This document shows, piece by piece, positions 25,734-62,010 of a stretch of 64,000 bases of DNA. Numbering within the stretch: the first letter of the stretch is position 1; the number at the start of each line of letters is the position of its first letter. The translations under genes were made by a program, and so were the position numbers. The DNA is taken from the NCBI GenBank assembly GCA_017461565.1, contig JAFTXQ010000011.1, forward strand, positions 62,001 to 126,000. The letters run 5' to 3'. The stretch is from Oscillospiraceae bacterium (GTDB lineage: Bacteria > Bacillota > Clostridia > Oscillospirales > Ruminococcaceae). The notes beneath the pieces are model-generated. The model searched no databases. It was given only the letters and a program-made list of their open reading frames with translations, and was not told the DNA's origin.

Positions 25734-26282
25734 TCATTTTACGGTCTTTTTATATATTTCACGATACAGAACATCTCTTACAACATTATACTCAGCCTCG
25801 GAAAGCGTCTTGGGCGAGGACATTATCACAAGCGGCACCTCGCTCTCACCATCGGACATTGCTGGCTGCAGATAATCGAAGTCATTCAGTGCAAAGCCAA
25901 GCCGCTGATAAAACGCTATCCTGCGTGCGGCTATTGCGCTGTCACTGGGCGGCTCTGCCTCGAGCACCAGGCATTGCTCCCCGACGATATGCCTAAGCTC
26001 TGACATCAATCCTGCACCTATTCCCTGTCCACGAAGCTCGGGCGTCACAGCAAAATGCTCGATATATACAAATCCGTCAAGCTCCCAATAATTGATAAAG
26101 CCCTTAATTCCATCGGGACAATAGCATAAGCTGTGAAACCGGATGTCTTCAAACTCCTCAAGATGTTTTGCAAAGCTCCAATGCTCGCATTTCGGGAACG
26201 ACATCTCAATAAGCTGATAATATTGCAAAAACAGCTCTTTGCTCAACTTTTTGCCGGTGTCGAATACTTTGATATCATTCAT
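25734..26282 (-). CDS. GNAT family N-acetyltransferase
   Basis: About 182 residues from MNDIKVFDTGKKLSK. The acetyl-CoA motif is EHFAVTPELRGQGIGAGLMSEL (R-G-x-G-I-G), followed by LVLEAEPPSDSAIAARRIAFYQRLGFALND, the usual C-terminal GNAT helix and turn. An AGGAG site 8 nt upstream of 26282 supports this start rather than ATG at 26324. The target is unknown. It is transcribed alone, divergent from the sigK-type gene and closed by a terminator. Confidence 0.85.
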   Translation of the reverse strand: MNDIKVFDTGKKLSKELFLQYYQLIEMSFPKCEHWSFAKHLEEFEDIRFHSLCYCPDGIKGFINYWELDGFVYIEHFAVTPELRGQGIGAGLMSELRHIVGEQCLVLEAEPPSDSAIAARRIAFYQRLGFALNDFDYLQPAMSDGESEVPLVIMSSPKTLSEAEYNVVRDVLYREIYKKTVK

Positions 26283-26381
26283 TTTATCAACTCCTGTTAA
26301 TATAATATCACCTGGACAATCCAATATACAGTAATTTCGTACAGGCGCAAGCTAATAGAATTAGGTCGGGAGGGATATCGT

Positions 26382-27083
26382 ATGTTCAACTTATTTCTAC
26401 AACTGGCGCTTGAAAATATGCTCTTTCTTGGTCTTCATCTCGATGGGAGAAATATGTTCCCGAAACAGCTTTCCAAAAAGGAAGAGGAAGAAGTGATAAA
26501 GCTGATTGCAAACGGAGATACTGCTGCACGTGACAAGCTTATTGAACACAACCTGCGTCTTGTCGCTTATATCGTAAACAAAAATTACCCTGAATCCTAT
26601 GAACAGGACGACCTTATTTCTATCGGTACGATAGGACTTATCCGTGCCGCTGAGACATTCGATTACAGCAAGGGACACCATTTTTCCACTTATGCTTCGA
26701 AGTGTATAGATAATCAGATAAAAATGTATTTCCGCAAGATAAAGCACCAGCTTACCGAGGTTTCCATCAGCGACCCGATAGATTCAGACGCTGAGGGCAA
26801 CGCACTCACGCTTGCTGATATTTGCAGTTCTGACATCAACGTCGAAGAAGATGTCATGCTTAAGATAAACTCCGAGAAGCTGTATCGCTTCATTGAGGAG
26901 GAGCTTGACGACCGAGAGCGGGAGATAATTGCGAAACGCTACGGTATCCCAGACAAGGACGGTCGGGTATGCAAGCCGCTCACACAGCGTGAGATCGCCA
27001 AGGAGCTTAAAATTTCACGGTCGTACATCTCAAGGATAGAGAAACGGGCTCTTGAAAAACTTAAAGGAAGGTTTGAAGCATGA
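26382..27083 (+). CDS. sigK: Sporulation-type RNA polymerase sigma factor, pro-sigma-K-like
   Basis: A 233-residue sigma-70 family protein. A hydrophobic N-terminal pro-segment (FNLFLQLALENMLFLGLHLDG) precedes FPKQLSKKEEEE, matching the pro-sigma-K layout in which this segment is removed by SpoIVFB. Region 2 is LIEHNLRLVAYIVNK / DLISIGTIGLIRAAETFD; region 4 is LTQREIAKELKISRSYISRIEKRALEKL. The gene is continuous, with no skin-type interruption. GGGAGG lies about 7 nt before the start. Alternatives are another sporulation sigma of the E/K group. Confidence 0.85.
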   Translation: MFNLFLQLALENMLFLGLHLDGRNMFPKQLSKKEEEEVIKLIANGDTAARDKLIEHNLRLVAYIVNKNYPESYEQDDLISIGTIGLIRAAETFDYSKGHHFSTYASKCIDNQIKMYFRKIKHQLTEVSISDPIDSDAEGNALTLADICSSDINVEEDVMLKINSEKLYRFIEEELDDREREIIAKRYGIPDKDGRVCKPLTQREIAKELKISRSYISRIEKRALEKLKGRFEA

Positions 27084-27187
27084 CAAAAGTCGATAGCCAC
27101 GAAATTACAAGTCAATTATAGCACTAACTTATACATAAGTCAATTTTCCGGAATTACCACAGAAATATGGCTTTATGTACATTACAA

Positions 27188-27245
27188 TATAGTCAACAAT
27201 TAAGCAGATACCTCATACTGAAGTATCTGCCTGTTGTTGACTATA
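27188..27245. terminator. Long stem-loop between sigK and the small-protein pair
   Basis: TATAGTCAACAA (27188-27199) pairs perfectly with TTGTTGACTATA (27234-27245), and inside it GCAGATAC (27204-27211) pairs with GTATCTGC (27223-27230). It lies between convergent genes and may terminate both, but has only weak T-tracts. Confidence 0.55.
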
Positions 27246-27269
27246 CAATATCTTTAACTCGACAGATTC

Positions 27270-27473
27270 TCAAAGCAACTCATCGTCATCATCAAATGCA
27301 CCCTGGCTGCCCAACATTCCGCCTAAGAGCATCTGATCATCAAAGGAGAAATTGCCTGTTCCTGCCGCAATGCCTGCAGCCTTGTAAGGATCAGGCTTTC
27401 CGTTCTCATCCTTGCTGCACTCAATAATACCCTGCATAGTGATCGCTTTCAGCATTTCATCAAAAAATCCCAT
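27270..27473 (-). CDS. Small acidic hypothetical protein
   Basis: A 67-residue protein starting MGFFDEMLKAITMQGIIECS and ending in an acidic tail FDDDDELL. It is rich in Gly and Ala in the middle (KAAGIAAGTGNFSFDDQMLLGGMLGSQG). AAGGA lies 8 nt before ATG at 27473; the in-frame ATG at 27482 would sit directly on the AAAGG site and is not preferred. It follows the 42-residue membrane peptide gene by 37 bp. No family recognised. Confidence 0.6.
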   Translation of the reverse strand: MGFFDEMLKAITMQGIIECSKDENGKPDPYKAAGIAAGTGNFSFDDQMLLGGMLGSQGAFDDDDELL

Positions 27474-27510
27474 GTTATTCATCCTTTCAATTAATCAGTT
27501 CAGATATACG

Positions 27511-27639
27511 TCACACCTCAGTGCTGCCCTCAGGGATAAAAAGACATATTACTATCGAAATAAGATAGATAGGAAACATAATGATCATCAATGCGAATAC
27601 TATCACCCCTAAGTCTTGTTCCAAACGACTGCCTTTCAT
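27511..27639 (-). CDS. Small single-pass membrane peptide, 42 residues
   Basis: A short gene with a strong AGGAGG site 7 nt before ATG at 27639. The product begins MKGSRLEQDLGVIVFALM and has one strongly hydrophobic helix (about 11-36, with Ile, Leu, Val and Phe) and a short polar end IPEGSTEV. It is upstream of the acidic small protein in a likely two-gene unit. No family recognised; the strong ribosome site and membrane helix support reality. Confidence 0.55.
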   Translation of the reverse strand: MKGSRLEQDLGVIVFALMIIMFPIYLISIVICLFIPEGSTEV

Positions 27640-27853
27640 AATCGATCCTCCTGAATTAAATCTGTTTGCCACCGGTTTCTTCGGTAGCTTTCTTTGTCTT
27701 GATTATATTTTATCATACTATATGGGCGGTTTTCAGGACAGTTATAGTGTTTTCGCAATTTGTTACGCTATTTTTGTACTTAATTTGTAGATTTCGAATA
27801 GATTCTCAAAGATCTGCCGCTTCATCCGCATCGTCCTCCCCTGCTACAGAAAC

Positions 27854-27887
27854 AAAAAATGAGCTGTCTGATCACAGCTCATTTTTT
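27854..27887. terminator. Bidirectional terminator below the HIRAN gene
   Basis: AAAAAATGAGCTGT (27854-27867) and ACAGCTCATTTTTT (27874-27887) pair over 14 bp around a 6-nt loop. It lies 11 bp after the HIRAN gene stop and, by its T/A tracts, works on both strands. Confidence 0.85.
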
Positions 27888-27897
27888 TGCAATAATA

Positions 27898-28380
27898 TCA
27901 GTTAATGGTACAGTGCACCTCCACAAAAAGCACTGCCTGCTTCGCATGGCGGCTTCTCTTTGTAAGTGGGTCCACAAAGCTTATAAAGGCTTCGTCTATC
28001 GTCAACAGGTCATTATCGTATAACGGTGCGATAACATTGCAAAGCTCTGCCGGAAAATGCCCTACATTGTCCCCCCTGGCATTCTCCATAGTGAAATTAT
28101 TGGAATTGTACGGATTAGCTCTGTCACGAAGCACCGTTATCCTATCACCACACTGCATCTTTTCAATGTATTCGGTACGACCATCGTAACGGGTGCCTTT
28201 CGCCTCAAACCGCAGAGTTATCCTGCCTGTTTCGGGTTCATAAATTCCCTCGCTTTTATCGAGATACTCCATCATTCCCGGTTCGAAATAATCAGGTGTT
28301 ACCGTTTTAGAAAGCTCATGCCTGTGATGGAGCTTTTCTATCTCTTTCATCAGATCATTAAAACGCTCATCCATCATCAC
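27898..28380 (-). CDS. HIRAN-domain protein (third gene of the HEPN/ParB operon)
   Basis: A 160-residue protein. The C-terminal half holds a HIRAN-like block: CGDRITVLRDRANPYNSNNF followed by ENARGDNVGHFPAELCNVIAPLYD. In HIRAN domains a G-x-x-V/I-x-L-x-R-E/D-x-x-N-P-Y/H-D/N-x-N motif and a later G-x-I/V-G-Y/H-x-P motif bind single-stranded 3' DNA ends. The N-terminal 45 residues are charged. It overlaps the 972-residue gene by 4 bp, and a terminator follows. A role in sensing DNA ends is inferred from the family. Confidence 0.7.
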   Translation of the reverse strand: MMMDERFNDLMKEIEKLHHRHELSKTVTPDYFEPGMMEYLDKSEGIYEPETGRITLRFEAKGTRYDGRTEYIEKMQCGDRITVLRDRANPYNSNNFTMENARGDNVGHFPAELCNVIAPLYDNDLLTIDEAFISFVDPLTKRSRHAKQAVLFVEVHCTIN

Positions 28381-31295
28381 AAGCCTCCGTTCTCGTCGAT
28401 CTCACGGTAATAAAGCTCCTGATCCGCATAGAATCTCTGAAGCTCGCTGTCATAGAATATATCCGCATCACGTGTCTTGAACACCAGATCATATTTATCT
28501 ATGATATCACAGCCGTATTCTTCTCTGAGCAGTGTGTCGAGGTCGTAAAGATCGATACTGCACTCACGCTTTACGATATCCGCAACAAAATCCTTATAGG
28601 TAATATCTTTTTTGCCCTTGTAGTATATCATCGTGCCCATCAGTTTCTTTCTTGAAAACCTGTTATCAGACAACAGCAGATTTCCACAGAAAAAATCGTC
28701 AAAGCCAATATCAAACATCTCGCTGTAATACCCTTTTTTCTTTAGTGACTGTATACTGAAGCATACTCCATCATCAACATTGTCATATACCTCATTGCAA
28801 AAATCCGATATCATGCCCTTGGTTATACCGAACTTTTCAAGGCGACCTATCGTTATCAGTTTATCCTGCTCGAATTCTACTATTTCAAGATCTTCCCTCA
28901 GTCGCAGATAAATACTGTAATAAGTTTCAAGAGTTGAATATCTATGCTTGAATGTGCTTATATCCGTTACTTCTTCATTTGTGAGAAGGTAAGTAAAATA
29001 ATCTTCGGCCGAATCAAAATGCTGTATAACATATTTCGAATTCACAACAAATCCCATCTGCTTCAGATTATAGCTGTTTATCTCCTCTGCATCGGCATCA
29101 GGGAACTTTGTGAGATACTGCTCACGAAGTTCGTCAATGTAATAGAAATCCTCTGTGAACGCCTTTTTGAATGCCATACGGCGCTCAAAGCTCATTTCCT
29201 TCTGATCGATGGTGAACATTCCGTCGTGGTAATACACCATGATATGCTGAAGGTAATTAGGTATCATCTTCATATCATAGCCGTATTCTCTATGGATCAG
29301 CTCGCACAGGTCGTTCATGCTGATGGGTGCATTATCCACCATCATATCAAACATTGCACTGTCACGGTCGGGAGTACCAAAACGGATAGTCGGCATTTTT
29401 GAGAATTTCAGCTCGGGATAAATACCATAACTATCGCTTTCAAGCGCTTTTTTAAGCAGATTATGCAGCTCATAGCCATCTCTGATATCGTACTTTTCCA
29501 TCAACTCGGGATACTCTTCAACGAATTTTACTGTTGACAGCTCCACATTCTTGTATGAGCCGAGATCAAACACCTCAAAAAGCTCTGTAAAGTCCTGACC
29601 ATCTATATCATAGTACCTGAAACGCTCGCCCAGCTTCCACAGCAGGAAATGGCTTTCCTGAAACCTGTTCTTTCTTGTCGCAAGCACCTCATCCGTATAA
29701 TACAGCTTTTCATCGAAGGGTATCCCCTCGCTGACCAGATAGTTATTGAAAATATCAACAAAATCAGTGAATGTGACTTCATCTGCACAGAATTTCTTAA
29801 CTATGACAGGCTCAAGGTCAGTGCGGCGTTTTTCTATCCATTTACCGTCGATATAGATCCTGTTTCGGTTGATGAAATTCTTTATCCTTAAGCGAAGTCC
29901 AGCTTCAAGGTGACTTACATCCTTTATCGCTGCGTCAAGCGGCGTTGTGCCTTTCTTTACGCCTGCTATCTCAAAATAGTTCCATACCTCATCAGTTACA
30001 CCAAGCCACCGGGAGCTTTCATCGTGGTCGAACCCGTATGTTTCGTAGAGATATCTATAATAATCCTCGTCAAACAGATCGTTGCCTGTTTCAGAGATAT
30101 ATTGCAGCCGTATTTTTTCAACGCTTTTTTTGGACAGCTGGCGAACTCGCTCTCTTGTGATGGATAACTCTGTGCCGATTTCATCAAGCGTAAGTCCCGC
30201 AAGACGACCTTTCACTATCTGCTTACTGCGGTCATCGATATCGCAGTCCACATAGTAATCGGCAAATCGGGTATAGGTCTTATAGCAGCGGTAGTCCACA
30301 TATTCAAGAACGCCTTCTGCTACAAGCTGACCCAGTACCTTTTTCAGCCTGTCATGCGGAAGCTCAACAGTATCTTTCAGCCTTTCTGCAAGCTCGCTGA
30401 CGCTTAATCCACCAAATCCCATTGTGCGATATACGTCAAGCACAAGATCTCTTATCTTTTTATCGGTGACAAGTACAGACGTGTCACCGTTTATGTACTG
30501 AATTATCCTTTCTCCGTGGGTATCAAGATAAAGCCTTATCATATTGCATACCTCATCAACAGAACCTGAACCAAGACCTCCGAGTTTATCTATCTCGTTT
30601 CTCGTCAGAAATATGATACTGCTCATTCTGCTGTATCCGTTGTTGATAAGTGCATTTCTCGGACGTGTGGACAGCCCCATATCCAGCACTGCGATATCAT
30701 TTGCTCTCAAATATTTCAGTATCTCACTGCGATATGTCACATCACGCAGGATATCGGATATGGTAAGCGGCTTCTTTTTTGCGTCCGCTGATATCTGCTG
30801 CGCAAAATCCTCGATCATTTCCCTGTTCTCACGGATATAACGCTTGCAGGCTCTGACGATATCACGAGCCGAAGATTCGTCCATTCCTCTTATGCACATA
30901 AGCTCATCTTCGGTCATGAAAACAAACTTCTCCAGCCTGTCATAACCGCTGAACACCAGCATATTATATGCTCTTGCAGGAAGCAGCTCAAGTACCTCGG
31001 TCTTTACCTTGCTGGCTTTAAGATAGTCTATCACTTTCTGTGCATCATCAATATATGCTTCGTGAGCAGGTGCAACAGCAGGAGGAGCAGCATTAAGCTC
31101 ATTATAATATGCGATCTTCTCCAGTATCTCAGAAACAGATTTCGAACCGAGATTGCGTATTCCGGAAAGGCTCTCTGCATCGTATTTCAGCATATCTCCG
31201 ACAGTATGTACACCAATACGATGAAGCGCATTGCACGACCGTACCGACATTCCCGTTTCATCTATCGGAAGCAGTTTAACATCCATATCATTCAC
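28377..31295 (-). CDS. Large protein with alpha-CTD-like repeats and sigma region-4-like HTH
   Basis: A 972-residue protein. Residues 8-62 (MSVRSCNALHRIG ... SLSGIRNLGSKSVSEILEKI) match the C-terminal domain of RNA polymerase alpha. Two more similar helix-hairpin-helix units follow at about 98-155 (LPARAYNMLVFSGY) and 203-258 (STRPRNALINNGY ... LGGLGSGSVDEV). Then come a winged-helix-like part (about 281-335) and a sigma-70 region-4 type HTH (about 354-396, LTLDEIGTELSITRERVRQL). The last 570 residues show no motif I recognise. Overlaps of 4 and 8 bp with its neighbours mean one operon. It likely binds DNA or RNA polymerase. Confidence 0.8.
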   Translation of the reverse strand: MNDMDVKLLPIDETGMSVRSCNALHRIGVHTVGDMLKYDAESLSGIRNLGSKSVSEILEKIAYYNELNAAPPAVAPAHEAYIDDAQKVIDYLKASKVKTEVLELLPARAYNMLVFSGYDRLEKFVFMTEDELMCIRGMDESSARDIVRACKRYIRENREMIEDFAQQISADAKKKPLTISDILRDVTYRSEILKYLRANDIAVLDMGLSTRPRNALINNGYSRMSSIIFLTRNEIDKLGGLGSGSVDEVCNMIRLYLDTHGERIIQYINGDTSVLVTDKKIRDLVLDVYRTMGFGGLSVSELAERLKDTVELPHDRLKKVLGQLVAEGVLEYVDYRCYKTYTRFADYYVDCDIDDRSKQIVKGRLAGLTLDEIGTELSITRERVRQLSKKSVEKIRLQYISETGNDLFDEDYYRYLYETYGFDHDESSRWLGVTDEVWNYFEIAGVKKGTTPLDAAIKDVSHLEAGLRLRIKNFINRNRIYIDGKWIEKRRTDLEPVIVKKFCADEVTFTDFVDIFNNYLVSEGIPFDEKLYYTDEVLATRKNRFQESHFLLWKLGERFRYYDIDGQDFTELFEVFDLGSYKNVELSTVKFVEEYPELMEKYDIRDGYELHNLLKKALESDSYGIYPELKFSKMPTIRFGTPDRDSAMFDMMVDNAPISMNDLCELIHREYGYDMKMIPNYLQHIMVYYHDGMFTIDQKEMSFERRMAFKKAFTEDFYYIDELREQYLTKFPDADAEEINSYNLKQMGFVVNSKYVIQHFDSAEDYFTYLLTNEEVTDISTFKHRYSTLETYYSIYLRLREDLEIVEFEQDKLITIGRLEKFGITKGMISDFCNEVYDNVDDGVCFSIQSLKKKGYYSEMFDIGFDDFFCGNLLLSDNRFSRKKLMGTMIYYKGKKDITYKDFVADIVKRECSIDLYDLDTLLREEYGCDIIDKYDLVFKTRDADIFYDSELQRFYADQELYYREIDENGGL

Positions 31296-33036
31296 TCTCA
31301 GTCAGCATTTTTCTGAAGCCCTCTGCCATACGTGAGAGATCCTCAAGCTCTGCAACAAGATCACGCTTTTCATCCTCATCCAGCTTGCCGAACAATCTGG
31401 GATCTATGTCAGAAAGCAGGTTCTTGCACTTTGCAACGTTCTCAGATGGCTTATTTACCAGATTCTTTGTTCTCATACGCAGCAGACTACGCTCTATAGA
31501 AGCGTTCATATCATCTGCTAGCTCTGCGTTATCGGAAGCGAACTTATCAAGATCCGCCTTATTTTCAGGAGTAAGACTGCTGAAGTTTTCCGATATATGC
31601 TTTCCGATAGTATCCTGTTCCGCCAGGAAATCAGCCGCACCTTCATCATTAACAAGCTTTTTGATGTCACGGATGAACTTACGCTGATCGGGGCAGGCTT
31701 TCAGCAGAACATTATTGAATGCAAGCTGCATCAGACGCTGCTTGTCCTCGGCACTGCATTTCGAGAGCATAGGAAGAAGCTCGATAAACATACTGTATAC
31801 CTGAAGATCTCTTGCGACATGATACTGTCCGGGAAGCTTTACATAATCAAGGAACTTACTGATAAGTGCTGCTGTTTCGATACGCTTTTTAACATCGGAA
31901 ACAGATTCATTCGCACCCGCAGCATATTCTTCAGCCGTCAGAAGTCCTGTTACCACAACATCTCTGTATGTACCGACAGCATAGTCGATAAGGTCATAAT
32001 CCACCTTTTTCTCCTCGCCGTGCTGGATAGCAAGCTCCAGAAGCTTTATCTGCTTTCTGTCCCTGTTCATGTCAACATTCATGATGACCGTTTCAAAGAA
32101 CTGCGTTTCGCCGCTGTCACGCTGGATACGGCGCAGACAGGTAACTCGTCTGTTACCGTCAACTATTCTGCCATCAGCAAGGATAACACCCGGCTGCTGC
32201 TGACCGACAAGAGCAATATTCTTCTGTGTTCTTCTGATGGACTCGGGATTGCTCTCAAAAATAAAGTTTTCGATGACATCATTGTATTCATCACTGCCAA
32301 GTGTGCTTAAAGCTGATGCGCCATGCTCTGCACGATAGCTTGAGATCCATGTGGAGATTCTGTCATTCTGATCGTTATAATACAGTGCATCGATCCTTAC
32401 TCTATACACGGGATAGAGCTCTGTTTTTCCTGCAAAGGTGATCTTCTTTGTTATCTTAGTCTTATATATCTTATTTGTACGGATAAGCGTCATAAGGTCC
32501 TCAACAGCGCCCTCACGCATATCCACCTCATCAACGAGAGTTTCCTCCAGCGGCATAGGTCCGCTTAAAGAGGAATCATCATCGCTGTCATCCTCTGAAA
32601 ATCTTAGAGCATTGTACAGTTCTCTTATCTCCTGTGCTCCGTCCTCGTCTATCTTCTCGCAAAGGCGTGCCATTGTATCAAGATAACGTTCTGCATCAAG
32701 CTGCTCTATATCCTGTTGACCTATGTGAGCTACGATGTTGCGTATTCCCATAAGCTCATTGGCAAGAGTCTGCGCCTCCCTGTCAAGGGAATATCTGAAC
32801 AGATCCTTCCACTGTCTCTGTACGAGTCTTACGCAATTCGCTATATCAAGTGAATCCACCAGGTCATTATACTCTCCGCCCGACGGAAGCTCATACTCGT
32901 GGTCATTCAATGTATACAGCACCATATCCCACCACTTATTCTTATATTGACGGTGCATTTCATTACCCACAAAGCCTGCAAGCAACGGATGAAGTATTCT
33001 CATACCCTTCTGGACATAATCGAAATATTCCTGCAT
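31288..33036 (-). CDS. Swt1-type HEPN plus ParB-like domain protein
   Basis: A 582-residue protein, first gene of the three-gene operon, with AAGGAGAACG before the start. The N-terminal about 140 residues are helical and contain RNIVAH at 99-104, an R-x4-H HEPN ribonuclease motif, in the layout of Swt1-like HEPN domains (ILHPLLAGFV ... LANELMGIRNIVAH). An acidic linker (about 146-180) follows. Residues about 270-330 contain ILADGRIVDGNRRVTCLRRI, a ParB/sulfiredoxin-type core with the G-x-R-R motif at 294-297. The rest is helical. Candidate RNase or nuclease effector of a defence system; activity not shown. Confidence 0.75.
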   Translation of the reverse strand: MQEYFDYVQKGMRILHPLLAGFVGNEMHRQYKNKWWDMVLYTLNDHEYELPSGGEYNDLVDSLDIANCVRLVQRQWKDLFRYSLDREAQTLANELMGIRNIVAHIGQQDIEQLDAERYLDTMARLCEKIDEDGAQEIRELYNALRFSEDDSDDDSSLSGPMPLEETLVDEVDMREGAVEDLMTLIRTNKIYKTKITKKITFAGKTELYPVYRVRIDALYYNDQNDRISTWISSYRAEHGASALSTLGSDEYNDVIENFIFESNPESIRRTQKNIALVGQQQPGVILADGRIVDGNRRVTCLRRIQRDSGETQFFETVIMNVDMNRDRKQIKLLELAIQHGEEKKVDYDLIDYAVGTYRDVVVTGLLTAEEYAAGANESVSDVKKRIETAALISKFLDYVKLPGQYHVARDLQVYSMFIELLPMLSKCSAEDKQRLMQLAFNNVLLKACPDQRKFIRDIKKLVNDEGAADFLAEQDTIGKHISENFSSLTPENKADLDKFASDNAELADDMNASIERSLLRMRTKNLVNKPSENVAKCKNLLSDIDPRLFGKLDEDEKRDLVAELEDLSRMAEGFRKMLTESE

Positions 33037-33054
33037 AATCGTTCTCCTTTGCGT

Positions 33055-33077
33055 ATTAAATCGACATTTAATTTATA
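33055..33077 (-). promoter_or_regulatory. Inverted-repeat operator and -10 region upstream of the HEPN/ParB gene
   Basis: ATTAAAT (33055-33061) and ATTTAAT (33066-33072) form an 18-bp palindrome around CGAC, directly overlapping or adjoining a TATAAA -10 (33077-33072, minus strand). It lies 18 bp upstream of the start codon, a typical place for autorepression. Confidence 0.45.
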
Positions 33078-33150
33078 ACATATCCGCAGAGCGAAAGTTC
33101 GGTAAAACGGCGTAAACCATTATGTCTGCAACAGCAGACACGGGAGATGC

Positions 33151-33588
33151 TTCAATGAAAACAGCGCAATTGCTAAAAGCAATTGGTAAAAGCTGTTTTC
33201 ATTATACCATGACCTCAAACACGAAGTGTTTGAAAGCTGCGTAAGCAGCACAGTCGCAAAGCGGTCAGGTCAGCCGTTCAATGAAAACAGCGCAATTGCC
33301 GAAAGCAATTGGTAAAAACTGTTTTCATTATACCATGACCTCAAACACGAAGTGTTTGAAAGCTGCGTAAGCAGCACAGTCGCAAAGCGGCCAGGTCAGC
33401 CGTTCAATGAAAACAGCGCAATTGCTGAAAGCAATTGGTAAAAGCTGTTTTCATTATACCATGACCTCAAACACGAAGTGTTTGAAAGCTGCGTAAGCAG
33501 CACAGTCGCAAAGCGGTCAGGTCAGCCGTTCAATGAAAACAGCGCAATTGCTGAAAGCAATTGGTAAAAGCTGTTTTCATTATACCAC
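33151..33588. repeat. Tandem array of 126-bp structured repeats (about 3.5 copies)
   Basis: Units begin TTCAATGAAAACAGC at 33151, 33277, 33403 and 33529, exactly 126 bp apart, with only a few substitutions. The fourth copy stops after its first stem-loop. Each unit holds stem-loop A, ATGAAAACAGC/GCTGTTTTCAT closing an inner CAATTGC/GCAATTG, and branched element B, closed by TGACCT/AGGTCA and containing TCAAACAC-GAA-GTGTTTGA, GCTGC-GTAA-GCAGC and CGC-AAA-GCG hairpins. The array ends 115 bp upstream of the HEPN/ParB start. Confidence 0.95.
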
Positions 33589-33654
33589 AAAACAGTATAT
33601 AAAGTCAATAAAACAGACACGAAAACACCCTCTCAGCCGACACCGTGAGGGATG

Positions 33655-33723
33655 ATATATGTTATCGGAATGAAATTCCGATATGACAGCGAAGCTGTCG
33701 ATTGCGAAGCAACAAACATATAT
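33655..33723. repeat. Cloverleaf-like palindromic element
   Basis: Outer arms ATATATGTT (33655-33663) and AACATATAT (33715-33723) enclose three hairpins in a row: ATCGGAA-TGAAA-TTCCGAT, GACAGC-GAA-GCTGTC and TTGC-GAA-GCAA. It has the same branched plan as element B of the 126-bp repeats but a different sequence. It sits exactly at the truncated 5' end of the IS30 remnant. Confidence 0.75.
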
Positions 33724-33970
33724 TTCAGGGTTCACACAGCCGTCCAAATCGGGCATGAAAGTTTATTTTTGTGACCCTTACTCACCTTGGCAGCGCAGTA
33801 CTAATGAGAACACCAATGGTTTACTACGTCAGCTCTTTCCAAGGGGCACTTCATTTGCCGATATTACCGATGAGATGCTTGCAGAGGTTGTTGACCTTAT
33901 TAACAATAGACCCAGAAAGCGCTTGGGTTATCTCTCACCTGCCGAGGTAATTCATAAATTTTTTCTTTAA
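33724..33970 (+). pseudogene. IS30-family transposase, C-terminal fragment
   Basis: The frame encodes the last about 80 residues of an IS30 DDE transposase: CDPYSPWQRSTNENTNGLLRQ with the catalytic Glu in NENTN, LFPRGTSFADITDEM and the end NNRPRKRLGYLSPAEVIHKFF. The N-terminal two thirds, including the first two catalytic Asp residues, are missing, and the cloverleaf element abuts the broken end. Non-functional remnant. Confidence 0.85.
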
Positions 33971-34045
33971 TATTGTTGCACTTGACTTGACAATCTATCA
34001 AGAAAACTTATGCAAAGCGACTAAGAGAAATCTTGGTCGCTTTTG

Positions 34046-34309
34046 TCATGCAACTTTGAGTCTGTACTCAACTGGTGACATACCATTAAGTTTAAGTTTG
34101 ATGCTTTTTGTATTGTACCATTCTATGTATGAATGAAGTTCGTATATAAAATGTTCGACAGAAGCAAACTCCTGCAAATATAATAATTCAGTTTTCAGCA
34201 ATCCGAAGAAATTTTCTGCGCAGGCATTGTCAAGACAATTTCCCTTTCGTGACATACTCTGTCTTATGCCTTTATCTTTGAGCATTGATTGATACTTTTT
34301 GTGTTGATA
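34046..34309 (-). pseudogene. IS3-family (IS150-like) transposase, C-terminal fragment
   Basis: The product YQHKKYQSMLKDKGIRQSMSRKGNC... continues LDNACAENFFGLLKTELL and ends YNTKSIKLKLNGMSPVEYR, the conserved IS3 OrfB C-terminus with the catalytic Glu in AENFF. The similarity begins upstream of the ATG at 34285, at about 34309, and stops abruptly, so the gene is truncated. No terminal inverted repeats were recognised. Confidence 0.85.
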
Positions 34310-34619
34310 TAGATTACGAATTATTGAAAGATACTATACACCTTGTTTATGCACCATTGTGTTTGCAAGTGATGTTACGTCTGTTACGATTTAAATATAC
34401 ATTCCCATACCGATTACGGCAACGCACGCTCCATGAGAGCCGCAGGAACCGCCGGAACAGCTTTTCTTTCAGTACTTTACCAATATCTATACCAACGCTT
34501 GCGTTGAAAAAGGCTTTCAAAAGCATTCATCACAACCACAATATGATGCTGCGCTCCGAACCATGTATTTGCAAAAATATGGTAGCATAACCCAAACATT
34601 CTTCTTTCATAACGACCTA
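34310..34619. other. Intergenic region without recognised gene
   Basis: This 310-bp stretch between the IS3 remnant and the Crp/Fnr gene has open frames but none with a recognised motif or a good ribosome site. It may be further decayed mobile DNA. Confidence 0.4.
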
Positions 34620-35279
34620 CTATAATAACTCAAATCTGTTTTTTTCAAACGTGATCAGTCCCTCGTCACGCATTTTACACAGCTCATTTGACATTGCACT
34701 TCTGTCAACGGAAAGAAAATCCGCAAGCTGCTGACGATTAAAAGGAATGGAAAACTCACTGCGGTTGTGTCGCTCTGCCTCCTCTGAGAGGTAGGCAAGC
34801 AGCTTCTCCCTCGTGGTGCGTTTGGACATATAACCCAACTTCTGTATGAGCCTTCTGTTCTTCTCGGATATTGCAAAAAACAAATTTTGCACAACCATAG
34901 AATGAAATCTGCAAGCAGCCGAACAAACGGTGATGATGCGCTTAACGTCGAAAAAAATGACTGCGCTGTCCTCAATTGCAAGCACATCGTTCGTCAGTGT
35001 GCCGCTTTCAGGAGCTACATAAGCTTCACCAAACATTTCACCAACACTTACCATGCTTATGATACTGCGGTTTCCCCAGTAATCGTCACGCTGAATGTGT
35101 AGCTTTCCACCCACAAGCACCAGGATTTTGTCGAGATGTTCGCCCTGTCGGAGAACATACTCACCTTTTTTATATGTGTAAAGCTGCGCCTGCAAGCAAT
35201 TAAGCATTGCTCCGATTTCTTCCTCGCCCACTCCAGAAAACAGCTGGGTTCTTTTTAATACAGGGATATATTTCTTCAT
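34620..35279 (-). CDS. Crp/Fnr family transcriptional regulator
   Basis: A 219-residue regulator. The cyclic-nucleotide-type beta barrel spans about 15-125 (YTYKKGEYVLRQGEHLDKILVLVGGKLHI ... GEMFGEAYV), followed by a dimer helix and winged helix with IPFNRQQLADFLSVDRSAMSNELCKMRDEGLI. No Cys cluster typical of Fnr is evident. It is divergent from a TIGR04076/ferredoxin gene set, with a GTTG-N6-CAAC palindrome between them that probably binds it. Similar regulators control nitrosative-stress genes such as hcp. Confidence 0.9.
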   Translation of the reverse strand: MKKYIPVLKRTQLFSGVGEEEIGAMLNCLQAQLYTYKKGEYVLRQGEHLDKILVLVGGKLHIQRDDYWGNRSIISMVSVGEMFGEAYVAPESGTLTNDVLAIEDSAVIFFDVKRIITVCSAACRFHSMVVQNLFFAISEKNRRLIQKLGYMSKRTTREKLLAYLSEEAERHNRSEFSIPFNRQQLADFLSVDRSAMSNELCKMRDEGLITFEKNRFELL

Positions 35280-35294
35280 AAAAACCTCGTTTCC

Positions 35295-35336
35295 GTTGCA
35301 AATACAACCGACTTATCACAGATATTATAGTATAAT
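35295..35336. promoter_or_regulatory. Operator and promoter between the Crp/Fnr gene and the TIGR04076 gene
   Basis: GTTGCAAATACAAC (35295-35308) is a GTTG-N6-CAAC palindrome placed 16 bp from the regulator start. A TATAAT -10 for the rightward genes lies at 35331-35336, so the palindrome overlaps or borders its -35 region. Confidence 0.55.
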
Positions 35337-35363
35337 ATCAACAGAAAGTCAAGGAGGTGCGTG

Positions 35364-35627
35364 ATGAAACCCAAAATCAAAATATCACTTATTGAAAAGA
35401 AAGGTGAATGTGAATGTCACAGAGGGCATAAAGTAGGCGATGCCTTTGATTATTACAGCGAACGAGGAAAGCTATGTCCTATGGCAATGCACGTTGCATT
35501 TCCATACATAGATATTCTTCGCTATGGCGGAACGCCGCCTAAATCAAAGAACGGAGATATACGCTTCTGCTGTCCCGATTGTGATGTGATAAATGTATTT
35601 AAAATAGAAGTGGAGGAACAACTATGA
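35364..35627 (+). CDS. TIGR04076 family protein
   Basis: An 87-residue protein with conserved Cys pairs: KKGECECHRGHKVGDAFDY, GKLCPMAMHVAFPYIDILRYGG and RFCCPDCDVINVFKIE. This is the pattern of the TIGR04076 family, frequent in anaerobes beside ferredoxins. AAGGAGG lies 6 nt before ATG at 35364, which is preferred to the GTG at 35361. It overlaps the ferredoxin gene by 4 bp. Metal or cluster binding is likely from the Cys residues; function unknown. Confidence 0.85.
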   Translation: MKPKIKISLIEKKGECECHRGHKVGDAFDYYSERGKLCPMAMHVAFPYIDILRYGGTPPKSKNGDIRFCCPDCDVINVFKIEVEEQL

Positions 35628-36310
35628 TAAGAAAAATTATAAGAATTGATGAAGAAAAATGCAATGGCTGTGGTCTTTGCGCAGAGGCTTGTCACGAGGA
35701 TGCGATCGAAATGATTAACGGAAAGGCAAGACTTACCCGTGAGGATTACTGCGACGGTCTGGGCGATTGTCTGCCAGCGTGTCCCACAAACGCTATCACC
35801 TTTGAGGAGCGTGAAGCACCTGCATACAATGAAGAAGCTGTTCTTGCGGCAAAGCAAAAGAAAGCGACAACACTTCCTTGTGGATGCCCGGGAACACAGT
35901 CAAAAGCTATAAAGCGTGAAGCGGTTTCATTTTCCGCACCTGTTTCAAGTCAGCTTTCACAGTGGCCTGTTCAGATCAAGCTTGTGCCGGTAAATGCGCC
36001 TTATTTCAATAATGCAAATCTTCTTGTTGCAGCAGACTGCACCGCCTTTGCATACGGAAATTTCCACAACGAATTTATCCGTAATCACATTACGCTTATC
36101 GGCTGTCCGAAGCTTGACGATGGTGATTATACTGAAAAGCTGACGCAGATCATCGCAAACAACAATATCAAAAGCGTCACTGTTGCAAGAATGGAAGTGC
36201 CTTGCTGCGGCGGCATTGAAAACGCTGTTAAGCGTGCTTTACAGTTAAGTGGTAAATTTATTCCGTGGAGAGTTGTAACAATTTCCACAGACGGAAGAAT
36301 TATAGAGTGA
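35624..36310 (+). CDS. Two-[4Fe-4S] ferredoxin-domain protein
   Basis: A 228-residue protein. The N-terminal 60 residues carry two cluster motifs, CNGCGLCAEACHEDAI and the less regular CDGLGDCLPACPTNAI. A C-terminal domain of about 130 residues contains further Cys groups (LIGCPKLDDGDYTEKL and VPCCGGIENAVKRAL). The arrangement suggests electron transfer to a partner or to the second domain. It is translationally coupled to the TIGR04076 gene and part of the Crp/Fnr-controlled set. The redox partner is unknown. Confidence 0.9.
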   Translation: MIRKIIRIDEEKCNGCGLCAEACHEDAIEMINGKARLTREDYCDGLGDCLPACPTNAITFEEREAPAYNEEAVLAAKQKKATTLPCGCPGTQSKAIKREAVSFSAPVSSQLSQWPVQIKLVPVNAPYFNNANLLVAADCTAFAYGNFHNEFIRNHITLIGCPKLDDGDYTEKLTQIIANNNIKSVTVARMEVPCCGGIENAVKRALQLSGKFIPWRVVTISTDGRIIE

Positions 36311-61933: not shown

Positions 61934-62010
61934 ATATTGTTTGCAACAGATTTACCATCTTACCTTCCACCGCTCACGGAGCTTTTCTATGCTCTCTCCA
62001 TGAGCGGATA

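Follow-up and report, generated by a model that had tools for sequence, protein, structure and literature searches.

A three-gene operon of an Oscillospiraceae bacterium joining HEPN-ParB-like, alpha-CTD/sigma-4 and HIRAN proteins, read as a candidate anti-phage conflict module

What brings together, in one operon, a predicted RNase fused to a ParB-like region, a large protein assembled from parts resembling the promoter-recognition elements of RNA polymerase, and a small HIRAN protein? The question is raised by three consecutive genes in a 64,000-nucleotide stretch of an Oscillospiraceae bacterium (hereafter the window: positions 62,001 to 126,000 of contig JAFTXQ010000011.1, assembly GCA_017461565.1), taken from a genome of 2.19 Mb that is assembled in 19 contigs. 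Gene 1 carries a HEPN_Swt1 domain and a ParB-like region, gene 2 carries copies of the C-terminal domain of the RNA polymerase alpha subunit (alpha-CTD) and a helix-turn-helix (HTH) of the sigma-70 region 4 type (sigma-4), and gene 3 carries a HIRAN domain (Table 1). The answer that we favour, with a probability of about one half, is that the three genes form a mobile conflict module, most likely directed against phages, in which the gene 2 product, here called the sensor, would read promoter-like DNA. Loci and genomes are cited below by our own numbers (L and G) where they have to be told apart.

All three open reading frames (ORFs) lie on the minus strand, and genes 1 and 2 overlap by 8 bp and genes 2 and 3 by 4 bp, so that the ORF coordinates bear out the initial annotation of a three-gene unit. 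A promoter-like site upstream of gene 1 and a terminator-like hairpin 3' of gene 3 would agree with a single transcription unit, both being consensus matches only in a region that holds 19 promoter-like sites against 15.0 in shuffled sequence and eight terminator-like sites against 4.3.

The three genes also travel together in other genomes. A survey that covered 84,980 species, each represented by one genome, and used an alignment of the gene pair as the query returned 44 loci; because the scan used short peptide seeds, its counts are of loci found and not of all those in existence. The HEPN part is present in 21 of the 44 (in L061 only its last third matched), six of which (L045, L052, L058, L059, L068 and L077) reach a contig edge before a trio would be visible, and all three genes stand in the same order in 12 of the 15 that can be read. 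Among these 12, L056 and L062 are near-identical and L054 is the locus of genome G203, identical over the 10,011 bases compared; the intergenic gaps in ten trio loci range from 4-bp overlaps to 17 bp. Protein distances over 12 loci correlated at r = 0.94 for genes 1 and 2, 0.71 for genes 1 and 3 and 0.80 for genes 2 and 3, and, once pairs closer than 0.2 were set aside, at 0.86, 0.25 and 0.36, respectively; genes 1 and 2 are therefore tightly bound to one another and the HIRAN gene less tightly. The ratio of nonsynonymous to synonymous substitution rates (dN/dS) was 0.06-0.31 for three locus pairs and three genes (nine tests), and all three genes are under purifying selection in these pairs. 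The suggestion made from the window alone, that the three proteins act jointly, is well supported by the 12 of 15 loci and by the distance correlation between genes 1 and 2; the outcome named in advance as refuting it, genes that part company in other genomes, was not what we saw. The further suggestion, that they detect foreign DNA or RNA polymerase and then cut RNA, is still an inference.

The trio is rare and patchy in its presence and recurs in gut and rumen bacteria. Across 394 genomes of the order, at E <= 1e-3, gene 1 was matched in five and the C-terminal module of gene 2 (residues 401-967) in five. In four genomes (the window's own, G000, together with G203, G382 and G507), strong matches to gene 2 lie next to genes that strongly match gene 1 or ParB; the ParB match in G315 (29%, E = 4e-19) has no sensor with it, and the weak sensor match in G329 (E = 6e-8) has no ParB match. 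The trio of G203, which belongs to another family, keeps the gene order, with identities of 54, 45 and 57%. Within a sample of 197 genomes of the family, a full-length sensor match is confined, among the matches listed, to the window's own genome; G090, G010 and G137 hold partial and more distant homologues among those listed, and the other listed matches fall mostly on the N-terminal alpha-CTD, as expected from RpoA. In two congeners, G094 and G180, neither gene 1 nor the C-terminal module of gene 2 was matched.

Gene 1 is, by its profile match and its R-x4-6-H motif, assigned to the Swt1 branch of the HEPN superfamily, with a predicted RNase activity. The HEPN_Swt1 profile is matched by all 17 aligned HEPN-ParB homologues, and R99, N100 and H104 are invariant in the same 17, which confirms the RNIVAH motif that had been reported within a Swt1-like domain. 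Table 1 of the HEPN survey records Swt1-type HEPN domains fused to ParB (Saro_3948 type), mostly active, and places the family in restriction-modification operons (PMC3710099). Gene 1 has the same domain fusion, and its product is therefore of a described kind; the alpha-CTD/sigma-4 partner and the HIRAN gene, both present here, receive no mention in the passages of the survey consulted. Open frames of about 1100-1160 residues in many genomes (G1056, G1280 and G995 among them) likewise match the HEPN_Swt1 part; they are perhaps the HEPN-AAA type of the same survey (PMC3710099). Beyond the HEPN domain, the core region of gene 1 is probably ParB-like, and D288, G289, R290, V292, D293, G294, N295, R296 and R297 are invariant in all 17 HEPN-ParB proteins.

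The gene 2 product is identified as a carrier of RNA polymerase alpha-CTD both by profile, Pfam RNA_pol_A_CTD matching across three stretches (E = 9.5e-28), and by its predicted DNA-contact residues. We take R19, N22, G50, K52 and S53 of the first copy to be the equivalents of Escherichia coli alpha R265, N268, G296, K298 and S299. All 13 trio proteins retain the equivalents of R265, N268, G296 and S299 (the last as S or T), and 12 of the 13 retain that of K298; most of the other 19 aligned sensor proteins retain these positions too. The positions that we equate with the sigma- and activator-contact residues D259 and E261 vary among sensors. This pattern of conservation favours the reading of DNA over the mimicry of a protein surface, which is why promoter reading is ranked first here. 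The recognition helix of the sigma-4 HTH, (T/S/Q)RERxRQ, is shared by 29 of 32 proteins (all but L074, L075 and L080), with R383 and Q386 invariant, and the sensor family profile compared with the SigA and RpoS structures gives a match that runs from region 4 into the preceding part. Pfam Sigma70_r2 did not match gene 2 up to E = 1, and the gene 2 product is therefore not a sigma factor. The alpha-CTD-like repeats, the sigma region 4 HTH and the roughly 570 unassigned residues of the initial annotation all hold, the last forming a C-terminal module without a Pfam family above cut-off.

Gene 3 can be assigned to the HIRAN family on its Pfam match, and its family profile matches chains of HLTF HIRAN structures (E = 5e-4), which upholds the HIRAN block first noticed in the sequence. 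It differs from HLTF in being a small stand-alone protein with no helicase.

Table 1. Features of the operon and its flanks, in window coordinates.
Feature	Position	Strand	Basis
Gene 1, HEPN_Swt1 + ParB-like protein, 582 residues (P0001)	31288..33036	-	ORF, Pfam, alignment
HEPN_Swt1 domain, residues 10-130	32647..33009	-	Pfam E 1.4e-26
R-x4-H motif RNIVAH (R99-H104), predicted RNase active site	32725..32742	-	conservation
ParB-like region, residues 175-480 (DGRIVDGNRR at 32146-32175)	31597..32514	-	conserved core, weak profile match
Gene 2, alpha-CTD/sigma-4 protein (sensor), 972 residues (P0002)	28377..31295	-	ORF, Pfam
alpha-CTD copy 1, residues 8-61 (R19, N22, G50, K52, S53 kept)	31113..31274	-	Pfam, alignment
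alpha-CTD copy 2, degenerate, residues 105-148	30852..30983	-	E 2e-4
alpha-CTD copy 3, degenerate, residues 203-253	30537..30689	-	E 1e-6
Sigma-70 region 4-type HTH, residues 354-396, RERxRQ recognition helix	30108..30236	-	Pfam Sigma70_r4 E 2.9e-9
C-terminal module, residues 401-967	28395..30095	-	no Pfam family above cut-off
Gene 3, HIRAN protein, 160 residues (P0003)	27898..28380	-	ORF, Pfam
HIRAN domain, residues 56-137	27970..28215	-	Pfam E 1.8e-11
Promoter-like site TTGACT-18-TATAAT, TG before the -10, upstream of gene 1	33579..33608	-	11/12 consensus match
Terminator-like hairpin, 14-pair stem, just 3' of gene 3	27854..27887	-	consensus match only

The remaining 23 of the 44 loci encode a ParB-like protein without HEPN, and this sister form exchanges the effector on the same core. 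The ParB-like core is near-invariant in the HEPN-less proteins too, and profile comparison makes the HEPN-fused and HEPN-less sets one family (E = 2e-108). An alpha-CTD/sigma-4-type gene lies just upstream of the ParB-like gene in 19 of the 23; L073 and L081 have no room for an upstream gene, and the archaeal L085 and L086 have the C-terminal module alone, so that the sensor gene or its C-terminal module precedes the HEPN-less ParB-like gene in all 21 loci with room. A helicase of the SNF2/SF2 kind follows in 21 of the 22 loci with room (L066 is without one; L069 has no room), is fused to the ParB-like protein in L081, and in L075 bears a PLD domain as well, with a match to PbeA (E = 8.5e-70). 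Genes for a MutH-type endonuclease and a C5-methylase are found in 8 of the 23 loci and Vsr in 4, and L084 encodes a fusion of MutH, sigma-4 and C-terminal module. That one sensor-ParB core can carry either HEPN or a helicase, and that the fusions occur, argues for the ParB-like protein as the link between effector and sensor. Enterococcus plasmids carry the sister form: gene 1 is matched by 66 plasmid records (52 from Enterococcus) and the sensor by 51 (48 from Enterococcus). An Exiguobacterium plasmid holds a dcm-Vsr-sensor set, and Streptococcus phage Javan191 a ParB-helicase-methylase set. Scans of viral contigs with A1 and A4 for the trio found no relative; five viral loci of the ParB-only form were found and, separately, four phage records match gene 1 outside the HEPN part. 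In viral contigs L160-L164 the ParB-like gene lies, judged by eye only, beside genes like those of a methylase and of a restriction subunit of the helicase type.

These comparisons bear on a different explanation, that the operon is a toxin-antitoxin system in which the HEPN-ParB protein would be the toxin, the HIRAN protein and/or the sensor would serve as antitoxin and autoregulator, and phage defence would be secondary at most. The tight coupling of the three genes is in keeping with it, and the HEPN superfamily is described in the survey as made up of toxin domains, the majority of them active as RNases (PMC3710099). It is a serious rival because HIRAN proteins in HipA operons have been proposed as antitoxins (PMC11706625). 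We nonetheless judge it improbable: L060 and L061 keep HEPN-ParB without HIRAN or sensor, HIRAN was found by tblastn in none of the 23 loci of the sister branch, where a helicase takes its place, and a sensor of 972 residues is large for an antitoxin.

A comparison of bacterial and archaeal versions serves as a natural test of the sensor. Of 41 bacterial genes with the C-terminal module, 39 have sigma-4 (13 trio genes by alignment and 26 others by profile, several of these rows being close relatives), and the two bacterial genes that lack both sigma-4 and alpha-CTD are paralogues of 660 and 663 residues (L038 and L039), each adjoining a full-length sensor. Archaea are represented by L085 and L086 (Methanomassiliicoccaceae) and by L192 and L193 (two genomes of the same phylum), drawn from a sample in which 5 of 164 genomes of the phylum had a ParB hit, the fifth (G1414) being left out with weak matches only. 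In all four, the gene before the ParB-like gene matches the C-terminal module (E = 1e-12, 4e-17, 5e-7 and 1e-69, in the order given), neither sigma-4 nor alpha-CTD was found in any of them by profile or Pfam, and Pfam gave at most a sub-threshold MutH match, in L193. This pattern fits parts aimed at bacterial promoters or at the bacterial polymerase.

Another explanation is a decoy or guard, in which the alpha-CTD and sigma-4 copies would bait phage proteins that seize RNA polymerase, and binding or modification of the bait would free the HEPN RNase. The lack of both parts in the four archaeal versions suits this arrangement, as does the retention of R19, the Arg265 equivalent, in all 13 trio proteins. 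It seems to us less likely than a toxin-antitoxin system, itself improbable: the conserved residues are DNA contacts, the positions equated with the protein-contact residues D259 and E261 vary, 7 of 38 bacterial sensors have no alpha-CTD, and we know of no T4-type polymerase hijackers for these hosts. The decoy model rests on phage T4, whose Alt and ModA proteins ADP-ribosylate alpha Arg265 and whose AsiA protein binds sigma region 4 (PMC2988021).

Support for a defence role is indirect, coming mainly from the sister loci with helicase, MutH, C5-methylase and Vsr genes, from the plasmid and prophage carriage of that form, and from the trio at L046, which sits within a restriction island with genes for an MmeI-type methylase, Mrr and GmrSD (HEC-05). 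At L048 the PADLOC candidate genes PDC-S01 and PDC-S48 lie beside the trio. The defence-gene context of the trio itself is thin. Among 91 neighbour proteins from 13 neighbourhoods (the 12 loci and the window), 56 PADLOC families were matched at E 1e-10, those listed in one to three proteins each; the strong matches assigned to loci are those at L046 and L048, six of the ten neighbour proteins traced individually matched nothing, and the Pfam families of trio neighbours are, among those listed, mostly ordinary. In Butyrivibrio hungatei (L060, 6357-12103), two C5-methylase genes are followed by a 705-residue HEPN-ParB variant without sensor or HIRAN.

Some neighbourhoods suit another possibility, that of a host stress or transcription-control operon pairing a polymerase-like regulator with an RNA-turnover partner, with no immune role. 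A lone sensor homologue at L041 lies, by eye, between genes resembling CheV and pyrH/frr, and genes of the MoxR-type AAA and LRR_5 kinds recur beside some trios. By eye, similar MoxR-type AAA ATPase genes stand just upstream of the sensor operon at L050 (8267-9805), L054 (8187-9701) and L066 (5326-6855), with leucine-rich-repeat and DUF2201-type genes near them; Pfam bpMoxR and DUF2201 are each matched in two neighbours. We regard host control as the least probable of the explanations weighed here, given a trio that is rare, patchy and not found in two congeners, and a core that recurs with restriction genes and on plasmids.

Resemblances to known systems are partial. PglW of type 2 bacteriophage exclusion (BREX) has a domain resembling the C-terminal domain of the polymerase alpha subunit (PMC12839542), and the PADLOC PglW model matches gene 2 at residues 10-92 (E = 1e-6); PglW is, however, a kinase, and Pfam finds in gene 2 a sigma-4 HTH but no kinase. 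MzaA of the MZA system shares a sigma-type HTH with gene 2, and NCBIfam MzaA matches residues 354-402, but at 23 bits against a cut-off of 800 bits and over the HTH stretch alone, which does not place gene 2 in MZA. Pbe/CxC systems are treated in PMC10853773, and the likeness to these and to Ssp systems lies in the PbeA match of the L075 helicase and in a sensor homologue that closes an Ssp-Pbe cluster at L042; the Pbe and Ssp models of PADLOC did not match the three trio proteins up to E = 1, so that the trio falls outside these systems. At L042 (genome G010) the alpha-CTD/sigma-4 protein is encoded last in an SspB/SspC-PbeA-PbeC cluster, and L043 (G137) has a similar order by eye; in these two loci the protein may be an additional component of phosphorothioation systems. 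PADLOC gives no convincing name to any of the three genes; the best matches are PglW over one alpha-CTD, as above, and PDC-M03B over HIRAN (E = 1.3e-8). The trio, the sensor and the sensor-ParB-helicase form were not found described in a literature search whose scope left out most subscription journals and preprints.

Several observations weigh against an anti-phage module with a promoter-reading sensor. Its weakest element is the ParB homology, which is weak by sequence: Pfam ParB families match none of the 17 HEPN-ParB proteins, and in hhalign comparisons with canonical ParB proteins from relatives the HEPN-less set reached E = 7e-4 at a probability of 27%, with the register kept at the DG(N/E)RR core, and the HEPN-fused set E = 0.12, against 0.45 for the HEPN part as a control. 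The GNRR core named in the initial annotation is invariant, and the ParB-type label attached to it is probable. Of the 13 trio neighbourhoods, L046 is the sole clear restriction island, with PADLOC candidates added at L048, and the lone homologue among housekeeping-type genes at L041 counts against a purely immune role. HEPN-ParB occurs without sensor or HIRAN at the two loci already named, and L067 is truncated. We caution that the four archaeal loci, all from one phylum, are not independent and may trace to one event; moreover, L193 retains a match to a winged-helix stretch of the N-terminal half of the sensor (E = 4.5e-4), and the gene of L192 appears as two ORFs. In bacteria, the sigma-4 match of L080 is weak (E = 1e-3, and none in Pfam) and that of L071 does not reach the Pfam cut-off, and alpha-CTD is present in 31 of the 38 full bacterial sensors with room and missing from the other seven, and is therefore not essential.

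Our preferred reading, a mobile conflict module with a sensor of promoter-like DNA, would work as follows. The sigma-4-type HTH of the sensor would read a major-groove site of the -35 type and the alpha-CTD copies an A/T-rich minor-groove site, the whole reading promoter-like DNA without forming a working sigma factor. The C-terminal module would dock the ParB-like partner, which would couple sensor and effector, probably as a clamp or switch that depends on a nucleotide. Wrong or excessive engagement of the sensor complex would trigger the HEPN RNase fused to the ParB-like part to cleave RNA, either phage transcripts or host tRNA and mRNA, as in abortive infection. The HIRAN protein may additionally check whether DNA ends or replication damage are present, or may restrain the RNase. 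A wider and more tentative proposal, which we think possible and well short of probable, is that the operon belongs to a class of immunity that watches transcription initiation, comprising a sigma-4/alpha-CTD sensor, a C-terminal module with a ParB-like switch and exchangeable effectors, namely the HEPN RNase with HIRAN in one branch and an SNF2/PLD helicase with restriction genes in the other.

The flanks of the operon hold further features. Between the promoter-like site and gene 1 lies a 126-bp tandem repeat (33151-33587; 3.5 copies, 97%), each unit of which combines an extended -10 box, TGGTATAATG, with a strong nested hairpin; the array folds strongly (z = -12.6). The repeat is dispersed, with 18 matches in the window's genome, five of them in the array, and 15 in one congener, and no array of this type was found upstream of the HEPN-ParB gene in 19 other loci, five of which have only 282-823 bases upstream (L056 and L061 were excluded). 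On these two grounds we rejected a type III toxin-antitoxin RNA array and did not count the repeat as part of the system. Upstream of the promoter-like site, on the opposite strand, an integrase-like ORF fragment (33683-33970) falls below the curated cut-off of its Pfam family. Rfam gave no match at the gathering threshold over 26000-36000. On the other side of the operon, a gene for a 233-residue sigma factor (sporulation type, by eye) is intact at 26382-27083; in G094 its two parts are matched separately on one contig, some 48 kb from each other, and all four matches in G180 are to its C-terminal part, which is the pattern that a sigma gene interrupted by an excisable element would show in these congeners.

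If the preferred reading is right, these bacteria would possess an immune sensor built from the promoter-recognition parts of RNA polymerase, and its sensor-ParB core would swap effectors between RNA cleavage and DNA translocation or nuclease action. The roughly 570-residue module and the ParB-like family at the centre of this arrangement are named by neither Pfam nor PADLOC in the proteins scanned. The operon would thereby offer a concrete proposal for how a cell may tell foreign transcription from its own.

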